From Gammaproteobacteria bacterium (GTDB taxonomy: Bacteria; Pseudomonadota; Gammaproteobacteria; Arenicellales; Arenicellaceae), in the NCBI GenBank assembly GCA_022447525.1, contig JAKVBA010000008.1, forward strand, positions 19,578 to 52,504: a DNA stretch of 32,927 bases, written 5' to 3'. The translations under genes and the position numbers were made by a program. How positions within the stretch are numbered: position 1 is the first letter of the stretch; each line of letters begins with the position of its first letter. The notes under the pieces are model-generated. The model saw nothing but the letters and a program-made list of their open reading frames with translations, did not search any database and was not told the origin of the DNA. Below are positions 25,009-29,433 of this stretch, in pieces.

Positions 25009-25049
25009 GGGGCGACTTTAATCTTGCCGCCCCTCAAAATACGGGGGCG
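25009..25049 (+). promoter_or_regulatory. Competing stems in the pre-tmRNA leader
   Basis: CGCCCC at 25028-25033 can pair with GGGGCG at 25009-25014 or with GGGGCG at 25044-25049, the latter being the 5' arm of the mature tmRNA acceptor stem. The two pairings exclude each other. If the transcript starts upstream of 25009, the leader could affect folding or 5' processing by RNase P. I see the pairing; the role is inferred. Confidence 0.35.
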
Positions 25050-25401
25050 ACATGGCTTCGACATGGGTCGCGAAACCTTCGGTGCATGTAGAGCATTACA
25101 GACTATCTCTTAAAACTAGCTGTAAAAGTTATAGTTGCAAACGACGATAACTACGCACTAGCAGCTTAAGCCTGCTAGGGTCTCGCCCGAGTTGTTCATG
25201 GCTTAGGACTTTGAGATCTCATCTCACATGAAATCGCGAGCTGTTTGTGTCGATTAAACCGCCGCTAAAACGCAATTCGACCCGCCCCGCACCGAGTGCG
25301 TTTGTCCAGTTGGAAGGGGTTAAATTAAAGGCAAACTAAACATGTAGAACCGTTGAGCGGAGGGCTTGTGGACGCGGGTTCGATCCCCGCCGCCTCCACC
25401 A
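25043..25401 (+). ncRNA. ssrA: Transfer-messenger RNA (one-piece tmRNA)
   Basis: Rescues stalled ribosomes and tags the incomplete protein for proteolysis. The 5' end GGGGGCGACATGGCTTCGAC pairs with the 3' end CGCCTCC-ACCA to form the acceptor stem (7 bp with one G-U), and the T arm GGGTTCGATCCCC is present. The 3' CCA is encoded. The tag frame runs 25137-25169 and reads ANDDNYALAA followed by TAA; ALAA is the degradation signal. Length 359 nt is usual for a one-piece tmRNA. Terminator and tRNA-Met follow. No convincing promoter could be fixed upstream. Confidence 0.97.
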
Positions 25402-25551: not shown

Positions 25552-25628
25552 GGCTATGTAGCTCAGTTGGTTAGAGCACAGCATTCATAATGCTGGGGTC
25601 ACTGGTTCAAGTCCAGTCATAGCTACCA
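25552..25628 (+). tRNA. tRNA-Met (CAT), elongator type
   Basis: 77 nt cloverleaf. The acceptor arm GGCTATG pairs with CATAGCT, the D arm is GCTC/GAGC, the anticodon loop TTCATAA carries CAT, and the T arm is ACTGG-TTCAAGT-CCAGT. The 3' CCA is encoded. The paired G1-U72 start and overall similarity to the elongator tRNA-Met point to elongator rather than initiator; a lysidine-modified tRNA-Ile2 is less likely. No terminator is evident downstream. Confidence 0.95.
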
Positions 25629-27961: not shown

Positions 27962-28436
27962 GGGATTCCCCTTCCTTCTAGGATTTATGTGTTCAAGTGA
28001 AAGCTATCATCGTAGCGGTCGAGCTAGGGTGAATAGCTTTAGCCTGTCTAAGGCTAGGTTTAAACTCTTCACTACAGAGTAATTTTTGTGCGGCGAAGCG
28101 ACCCTGTTACAACACTAGATTTTGTGCGTATATACAGTAAGATCCAAAATGTTGCTGTGTGCGATATGCGATAGGTTGAGAAGGGCTAAATCAGCTACCA
28201 CACGACATACAGTACCACCCCAGAATAAGCGATGTCTATAGTTTGACATGAACACTATGACCCGGCATAAAAGCCAAAAGTAAAGTTGATTATCATCCAC
28301 ACTTACTTGCCTCAAAGATCCCAATGCCGCAGAAATAAAGGATTCAAGCATTTTGCCAATTTGCAATTTAACTCGACATGTCCATCCAAGGAAGTACAGG
28401 GCGCCAGGAAATACTAGATAGAAGGCTTTGTTGACT
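27962..28436. other. Stretch between amidohydrolase and B2 gene
   Basis: 475 bases. The right part (28115-28436) lies in an open minus-strand frame that runs to 28573 and overlaps the B2 gene in another frame. Its translation is Leu/Phe/Trp-rich and unrecognised, and no ribosome binding site precedes any internal ATG, so I do not call it a gene. The left part is the amidohydrolase leader with two hairpins. Confidence 0.4.
28000..28056 (-). promoter_or_regulatory. Tandem hairpins in the amidohydrolase leader
   Basis: AAAGCTAT (28000-28007) pairs with ATAGCTTT (28033-28040). The stem continues through TCA/TGA with a bulge to an inner TAGC/GCTA pair. Next to it, TAGCCT (28040-28045) pairs with AGGCTA (28051-28056) around a 5-base loop. 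Both lie 39-95 bases upstream of the amidohydrolase ATG. They could be leader regulation or transcript ends from the B2 side; no T-tract favours termination. Confidence 0.35.
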
Positions 28437-28913
28437 TTATTCGTAATCGGATAAATCAGTGGAGGTAAACGTCGCGATCGGTGAATAACGATTTGCATGA
28501 TGACCGAGCACGACACTGGGGCCAACACAGATCCAAGCATGTGCTTGCATACCGCCTTCAGCATCCTTTTCAAACGCGGCTCCTAAATAAGTAATAGATG
28601 GTATCTTCCGCCGCTTGAATAACCAGTTTACGCAAATTGCCTGAGCCAGACATTCACATCTCCAAGGAACAGAGCCGGCCACCAATTCCATTAATGCCGC
28701 AATTTGACGTGCCTCGGAAAATTGACTTTCTGTCGTTATTAAGCATAACTGCTTATTTTTAAAGGGGTGCCCTAAAAATAGATGCGCACACCTAGATGGA
28801 AGTATATTCACAATGGGCCAAACAACCATTGAACTCAAAAAACAATTCAACAGCCATATTTTGTGTTGGCTCGGCAACCACCATATAAATGCAATTTTTT
28901 CTTTAAGCTTCAC
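28437..28913 (-). CDS. Lasso peptide biosynthesis B2-like protein (transglutaminase-type protease)
   Basis: 158 aa resembling the B2 proteins (PF13471 type) that remove the leader of lasso-peptide precursors. The core region VPWRCECLAQAICVNWL gives the expected catalytic Cys88, and GMQAHAW gives His125. The acidic residue that usually follows (HAWVEVD pattern) is Gly131 here (HAWICVG), so activity is uncertain. The hydrophobic N-terminus (about 18-40) is common in B2 proteins. The start is GTG at 28913, preceded in frame by TAG; it overlaps by 11 bases the stop of a 31-codon frame (28903-28998). The PqqD-like B1 gene lies upstream on the same strand. No cyclase is in the window. Confidence 0.82.
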   Translation of the reverse strand: MKLKEKIAFIWWLPSQHKIWLLNCFLSSMVVWPIVNILPSRCAHLFLGHPFKNKQLCLITTESQFSEARQIAALMELVAGSVPWRCECLAQAICVNWLFKRRKIPSITYLGAAFEKDAEGGMQAHAWICVGPSVVLGHHANRYSPIATFTSTDLSDYE

Positions 28914-28998
28914 GCACTAGTTCGATAGCTTGGTTGTAATTCAGAGAAAGATCGGCCTGATTACCAGCAAATCTAACAAATATATCGGAGGGTTTCAT
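28903..28998 (-). CDS. Possible 31-aa peptide overlapping the B2 start
   Basis: ATG at 28998, TAA at 28903-28905; begins MKPSDIFVRF and ends ELVREA. Its stop overlaps the GTG start of the B2 gene by 11 bases, the usual arrangement for translational coupling, and the B2 GTG lacks a ribosome binding site of its own. No strong Shine-Dalgarno precedes this ATG either. It does not fit a lasso precursor: no Thr-x-Gly at a leader/core junction. A TATTATACAT segment about 50 bases upstream could be a -10 element. Probably a leader peptide or a gene remnant if real. Confidence 0.3.
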   Translation of the reverse strand: MKPSDIFVRFAGNQADLSLNYNQAIELVREA

Positions 28999-29154
28999 TA
29001 TTGTCTTTTTTCATAGGGGTCATCACCGTATTTGGGCCTATGTATAATAACTAGCCTCGACCTAATATCTAGACAAAAGCAGCCTAAAAGCCACCATCAT
29101 TTATTGAGCGATAACCGATTTAAATAGGAGCACCAGAACAGGTTTGAAGCGCCT

Positions 29155-29433
29155 TCACTTGACCGAAAGAATCATGTTATTAGCGATCAGTTCATCAAAC
29201 AGACAGTGGAGATCGATCATGCACTTGTGCATTGAAACGTCATAACGCTCTATTAAATTGTCCGCAATTTGTTCGATCGAGTGAGGCGTTTGTAAAAGAT
29301 TCCAAATCTCAGCGCCTACTGCGTGCAATCCAAAATAAGACTCAAAGTTTTCATCGATCATTACAATTTCGTTGTCAATGGTACTGTAGAGAATATCGGG
29401 GTTACGCTGAAAAAGCTGAGTGTTAGATGTCAT
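29155..29433 (-). CDS. PqqD-family RiPP recognition protein (lasso B1-like)
   Basis: 92 aa from the chosen ATG. The sequence NPDILYSTIDNEIVMIDENFESYFGLHAVGAEIWNLLQTPHSIEQIADNL follows the PqqD/RRE pattern: beta strands, then LN/GxxIWxLL, then helices. Such proteins bind the leader of a ribosomal peptide and present it to the maturation enzymes. Starts further up (ATG 29451, TTG 29487) are possible; none has a clear ribosome binding site, and I chose the one giving the usual length and N-terminus. Followed by the B2-like gene on the same strand after about 240 bases. A PqqD-like protein working on a non-lasso product cannot be excluded. Confidence 0.75.
   Translation of the reverse strand: MTSNTQLFQRNPDILYSTIDNEIVMIDENFESYFGLHAVGAEIWNLLQTPHSIEQIADNLIERYDVSMHKCMIDLHCLFDELIANNMILSVK

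Follow-up and report, generated by a model that had tools for sequence, protein, structure and literature searches.

A PqqD and B2 gene pair in an Arenicella genome and a dispersed candidate lasso peptide pathway

The bsf lasso peptide genes of Bradymonas sediminis (A, B1, B2, C, D, K and N) lie in one 7.2-kb cluster with an ABC transporter, and BsfK phosphorylates the serine at core position 3 with the help of B1, as described in the accessible part of PMC10368454. Paeninodin is likewise made with separate B1 and B2 proteins, with B1 binding the leader and passing it on to B2 (PMC5067487, accessible part). Here we analyze a pair of B1-like and B2-like genes in a 32,927-nucleotide stretch of DNA, hereafter the window, which lies on contig C201 of a genome of the genus Arenicella (G000; GTDB classification; 222 contigs, 96.5% complete).

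The gene pair and its surroundings

Both genes are on the minus strand. The first encodes a predicted B1-like PqqD-family leader-recognition protein (29155–29433; PF05402) of 92 amino acids from an ATG at 29433, although an upstream TTG start would extend the ORF to 29487. The second, at 28437–28913, encodes a predicted B2-like leader protease of the transglutaminase-like fold family (PF13471, NF033537) with 158 amino acids and a GTG start. The 241-bp spacer between them (28914–29154, minus strand) contains no detectable remnant of a lasso gene. The original prediction of a PqqD-like protein and a transglutaminase-like B2 protein side by side on this strand was confirmed by profile-HMM search, in which both Pfam cut-offs were exceeded: the PqqD protein scored 49.4 bits against PF05402 (cut-off 23.4) and the B2 protein 55.8 bits against PF13471, Transglut_core3 (cut-off 26).

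The best NCBIfam model for the window PqqD was NF033536 (lasso_PqqD_Bac), at 56.4 bits and under its 80-bit cut-off, and its identity to its best relative is 32%. Its matches among solved structures (E up to 0.1) were three: TbiB1 (5v1u/5v1v), a lasso B1 protein that is its best solved relative, entry 9x90, titled 'Lasso peptide biosynthesis PqqD family chaperone', and, weakly, TfuB1 (6jx3; E 0.027). By these matches the window PqqD has the predicted fold of a lasso B1, a RiPP recognition element, and is predicted to bind a leader. The B2 protein additionally scored 53.9 bits against NF033537, lasso_biosyn_B2 (cut-off 33), and is thus assigned by profile to the Transglut_core3 / lasso_biosyn_B2 family.

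The catalytic triad of B2 leader proteases is Cys-His-Asp. Cys88 and His125 are invariant in all 18 aligned B2 proteins, while the alignment revealed no conserved acidic residue at the usual place of the third triad member in the window B2 or its clade. The predicted model of the window B2 (mean pLDDT 83) retrieved no significant solved fold in a structure search (best E 0.38), and a profile search of PDB sequences with this protein likewise gave no significant match. Both window ORFs are intact. Constraint was examined with a crude simulation of unconstrained change from the relative L040 to the observed nucleotide divergence, in 2000 runs. For B2, five runs were stop-free and the best reached 38% amino-acid identity versus 53% observed; the result for PqqD was much weaker (41 of 2000 stop-free; best 31% versus 32% observed). 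By this simulated measure the window B2 shows past constraint between lineages, which says nothing on its present activity.

Profile matches place an amidohydrolase, an NAD-dependent sugar epimerase/dehydratase and a GT4 glycosyltransferase at the flanks of the pair, in agreement with the amidohydrolase and sugar genes originally described there. The window was also said to lack an asparagine-synthetase-like cyclase, and contig C201 indeed holds no Asn_synthase match. Because C201 has no cyclase and no precursor lies beside the pair, the window itself is not a lasso cluster. Comparison of the spacer with all ORFs of the compared lasso loci (tblastn, blastx) returned the window's own ORFs only, and no remnants of other lasso genes were found beside the pair. 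Some short ORFs at 23–32.5 kb carry a motif loosely like YxxPx[LIVMF], but their sequences do not fit a lasso leader, and a stricter leader motif was absent from every ORF of the window.

Several other features of the window were considered. An overlapping ORF at 28115–28573 matched no Pfam family and was rejected as spurious, and a 31-aa ORF at 28903–28998 showed no resemblance to the end of a lost nucleotidyltransferase. Homologues of the window amidohydrolase (E up to 1e-60) are found in 9 of the 17 other genus genomes; no lasso-labelled gene was present in the two neighbourhoods inspected (L147, L148), and the amidohydrolase was not retained as a pathway gene. A scan of the window for promoters and terminators was uninformative. 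A tmRNA (25043–25401, plus strand; tag ANDDNYALAA) and a tRNA-Met (25552–25628, plus strand) occupy much of the stretch at 24.8–26.2 kb that has no long ORFs.

Cyclase, precursor and the three loci of the genus

One option raised in the original prediction, that the missing parts lie elsewhere, is supported for the cyclase and precursor, which are on other contigs of G000 without B1 or B2 genes alongside. The genome-wide search for a lasso cyclase that had been called for located a lasso-type cyclase on C141/C200. Eight Asn_synthase matches were obtained in total. Four were weak (21 to 27 bits) and appeared by eye to be other PP-loop enzymes; the strong ones were on C210, C36 (two matches) and C200. 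As candidate lasso cyclases we rejected the C210 homologue, an exopolysaccharide-type amidotransferase, and both C36 homologues, which are AsnB-like. The best model for the C200 protein was NF033535 (lasso cyclase), with 180.7 bits, below the 525-bit exception cut-off. A 64-aa precursor is encoded 53 bp after this cyclase; it passes lasso_leader_L3 (26.6 bits; cut-off 19), is the one match to a lasso precursor model in G000, and has the predicted core GGSLGIGESGSTPSDPRRNP.

The cyclase gene is broken over C141 and C200, with the first 58 model positions at the end of C141. There, a TonB-dependent receptor and an amidohydrolase precede the cyclase N-terminus in the same order as in G002 (L082). 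The two contigs share no overlap, and we infer that they are linked. No B2 match was obtained on C141 or C200, and the single PqqD-like tblastn match on C141 (E 0.002) is weak and short of the 1e-4 threshold. The window copy is the one B2 gene found in G000, and three PqqD proteins were found, on C182, C201 (the window) and C143.

We surveyed 18 Arenicella genomes, examining stretches of about 3.7 to 20 kb per locus; many of the genomes compared are metagenome bins. Locus I, consisting of the precursor and cyclase adjoining a 6-phosphofructokinase-like gene, is present in 16 of the 18. G001 and G012, the remaining genomes, yielded no cyclase, strong precursor match or such a phosphofructokinase, although G012 (98% complete) has an intact gspC-linked B2. 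Locus II, a PqqD gene beside rpsF-rpsR-rplI, is present in all 18, together with an NTP_transf_5 nucleotidyltransferase in 17 and a kinase-like gene in 16. Locus III is a lone B2 gene by gspC, mostly with mgtE as well, and is intact in 13 of the 17 genomes in which gspC was detected. At E up to 1e-4, neither B2 nor PqqD was detected in any of 17 locus-I stretches from 16 genomes; likewise, none of the 18 locus-II stretches held a B2 or cyclase and none of the 17 locus-III stretches a PqqD or cyclase. The locus-I contigs of G003 and G016 stop within the cyclase or shortly after it, which leaves the far side outside view. In G015 a single contig carries both cyclase and B2, separated by about 555 kb. 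The split arrangement is not peculiar to this genome, with loci I to III standing apart across the genus in the stretches examined.

All 16 locus-I precursors share Y-17, P-14, L-12, T-2, G1, T/S3 and E8, with core position 3 being threonine in 15 and serine in one (G000). Because every precursor has these recognition and core residues, we propose that the product is a Gly1-Glu8 lasso peptide, possibly phosphorylated. A YxxPxL leader, Thr(-2), Gly1, Asp/Glu at positions 7–9 and an adjacent lasso-type cyclase were all found, as predicted for a lasso pathway at the level of the genome. The kinase-like protein at locus II of G000 has no Pfam or NCBIfam match, and a profile of 14 locus-II kinase-like proteins matches other HprK-like proteins at 99.9% probability and contains an AESGAGKS loop. 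We saw no ABC exporter next to locus I. In 8 of the 16 genomes the cyclase has a TonB receptor as a neighbour (by ORF clustering; Pfam-tested in three), and uptake of the product through it is speculation.

Related features recur outside the three loci. A second triple of PqqD, NTP_transf_5 and HprK-like genes occurs repeatedly, in many Arenicella genomes, at L104, L109, L115-L117, L121, L124-L126, L130 and L034, the last on C143 of G000, where the kinase matches HprK_rel_A below the cut-off. Weaker precursor-model matches away from locus I are present in G015 (C1:40346-40495) and G006 (C297:6116-6220). A related precursor in G032 (L094 10182-10364) has isoleucine, not threonine, at leader position -2; isoleucine at this position is reported for Bradymonadales in the accessible part of PMC10368454.

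Several arrangements in other families of the order are more compact. G031 (L061) has cyclase, precursor, B2 and kinase close together, and about 7 kb of G044 (L066) hold cyclase, kinase, PqqD, B2, gspC and nucleotidyltransferase, with similar rows in G053 and G060. In G039 (L064), rpsF, B2, PqqD, gspC and nucleotidyltransferase are together, uniting what are loci II and III in Arenicella. These rows suggest that the Arenicella lineage broke up a lasso cluster present in its ancestors. In several families of the order, B2 has a lone gspC-like (T2SSC) gene nearby (L064, L066 and Arenicella locus III), either as a chance neighbour or as a partner.

Second clusters and the locus-III protease

The window B2 belongs to a clade (clade 1) of six tree rows with support 99/100, in a tree of short B2 proteins that carries long-branch warnings. 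Four of the five other B2 proteins in this clade are in or near second lasso clusters. The clade-1 B2 of G002 and that of G005 each share a stretch with a second cyclase, an HprK-like kinase, a sulfotransferase, a nucleotidyltransferase and PqqD; G007 has parts of this kind on one contig, scattered across about 35 kb. G018, from a sister genus, has PqqD, B2, an ABC exporter, cyclase and nucleotidyltransferase together. From this set G000 has only PqqD and B2, beside two sugar genes. No second-type cyclase was found in G000 with the Asn_synthase model, which scores 86 and 102 bits on those of G002 and G007. The window pair seems to descend from a second lasso cluster, although it may also have been gained alone, without the rest of such a cluster.

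Clade-1 B2 genes are distributed unevenly with respect to locus III. As to DISPLACEMENT of B2, locus III of G000 consists of mgtE and gspC with a 251-bp gap and no B2, and tblastn revealed no trace of one in that gap (best E 0.037). Locus III of G003 is also empty of B2. The gspC of G002 adjoins lnt, and the 3.7 kb examined there hold no B2. Between gspC and mgtE, G007 retains a B2 pseudogene with stops and frameshifts (L151 2280-2825, contig C3), which aligns with the G010 B2 over its full length at 54%. A clade-1 B2 is present in all four of these genomes without an intact locus-III B2 (G000, G002, G003, G007) and in one of the 13 with one (G005), a difference with a Fisher P of 0.002 when shared ancestry is ignored. 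G016 (81% complete), in which neither B2 nor gspC was found, was left out of this comparison.

Because G002 has a third B2 (L041), its clade-1 B2 need not be a stand-in. That B2 is part of a further PqqD and B2 pair at a contig end (L041 8637-9343, contig C53), with no cyclase in 9.9 kb and a nucleotidyltransferase at a distance of about 4 kb. The searches of G003 gave, besides its locus-I cyclase, a single B2 (clade 1) and a single PqqD (rpsF-linked), which would make this genome the clearest example of action in trans. A further cyclase may nonetheless be present: the locus-I cyclase cannot be called the only one in G003 because the same genus cyclase search missed the second cyclase of G007.

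The original prediction had suggested that the cluster could be a remnant. As a history of the locus this is plausible, with most clade-1 B2 genes in or near second clusters; as a description of the genes it fits poorly, with both intact and no other remnants beside them. A rather unlikely reading is that the pair is idle, left over from a second cluster that lost its cyclase, kinase and precursor, and that the C200 precursor either stays unprocessed or depends on some unrecognised protease. It would account for the closest B2 proteins sitting in second clusters and for the lack of a detected second-type cyclase in G000, but not readily for intact ORFs, retained Cys and His, visible constraint on B2, or the fact that this is the only B2 found in a genome with an intact precursor and cyclase.

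A link to polysaccharide genes was likewise raised at the outset and stands in part. The G007 and G018 clusters each hold a homologue of the Bac_transf sugar transferases, with 51% identity between the two (the G018 protein was checked against Pfam), as well as family-2 glycosyltransferases, and the window has its glycosyltransferase and sugar dehydratase. By profile or label, however, no polysaccharide-type genes lie beside the related B2 genes of G002, G003 and G005. Such clusters, the 32% identity of the window PqqD to its best relative, and a small candidate precursor within the second cluster of G002 would suit a further option of the original prediction, in which the pair acts on a different peptide, here a non-lasso or polysaccharide-associated one encoded elsewhere. 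We regard this as improbable, since no candidate precursor lies near the pair in the window and the genome's one lasso-precursor-model match, on C200, has no other B2 to serve it. Finally, an assembly artefact, in which B1 and B2 genes for the cyclase escaped assembly and the split is only apparent, is suggested by the broken cyclase gene and 96.5% completeness, but is very improbable and mostly ruled out by the relatives: both sides of the break follow the G002 gene order, the break falls inside the cyclase gene, 17 locus-I stretches of 16 genomes lack B2 and PqqD, and the cyclase and B2 of G015 are far apart.

Proposed pathway and comparison with known systems

We consider it probable that the window pair is a lasso-type B1 and B2 acting in trans, most likely on the C200 precursor. 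In the proposed pathway, the window B1, the rpsF-linked B1 or both would bind the YxxPxL leader of this precursor, and core residue 3 (Ser/Thr) may be phosphorylated by the HprK-like kinase whose gene neighbours that of the rpsF-linked B1. The window B2 would then cut the leader after T(-2)-L(-1), and the cyclase would close the Gly1-Glu8 ring. This co-function, as well as phosphorylation, ring formation and threading, is inferred from sequence comparisons. In most of the genus the protease would be the lone B2 beside gspC; in G000 the window B2, from a clade mostly in or near second lasso clusters, would replace the lost gspC-linked B2. The pair, probably left from a second, polysaccharide-associated lasso cluster, would supply a leader protease and a second recognition protein.

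For the genus as a whole, we lean towards the view that the Arenicella lasso peptide is a core, vertically kept trait, with a pathway scattered over phosphofructokinase, rpsF and gspC-mgtE neighbourhoods that would work wholly in trans and tolerate replacement of the leader protease from a second, partly polysaccharide-associated lasso pathway. Such a core but dispersed pathway, if true, would point to a standing physiological role, not to an accessory antibiotic, and to interchangeable B2 proteases. The lasso peptide has the look of a core trait in this marine genus, and its physiological role would become testable. If the leader protease was indeed replaced in trans, these genomes offer a natural test of the specificity of B1 and B2 for precursors. 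Additionally, genome mining by clustering of A, B and C genes would miss the Arenicella pathway or call it incomplete.

In a literature search of partial coverage, we found no paper combining Arenicella and lasso peptides and no precedent for unlinked lasso B1 and B2, the searches for unlinked lasso genes returning the citrulassin PAD instead; the accessible part of a 2026 review (PMC13352647) gave no match to the wordings sought. 

Compared with the bsf system as presented in the accessible part of PMC10368454, Arenicella has the same kinds of components (precursor, B1, B2, cyclase, kinase and nucleotidyltransferase) and the same precursor features, namely YxxPxL at -17 to -12, Gly1, an acidic residue at position 8 and, in G000, serine at core position 3. 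The two differ in having Ile(-2) and Asp8 in bsf and Thr(-2) and Glu8 in Arenicella, and bsf is one cluster with an ABC transporter, whereas the Arenicella loci are unlinked and no ABC gene was seen by locus I (PMC10368454). The paeninodin genes are clustered with precursor and cyclase, again unlike Arenicella (PMC5067487, accessible part). Unlinked RiPP maturation enzymes are known from citrulassin, where the gene for the PAD tailoring enzyme lies at a distance from that for the precursor (PMC12971885, accessible part), and from unclustered lanthipeptide proteases, which belong to another RiPP class (PMC8960859, accessible part). Arenicella differs from the citrulassin and lanthipeptide cases in that the lasso B1 and B2 are both unlinked from precursor and cyclase, and this across the genus.
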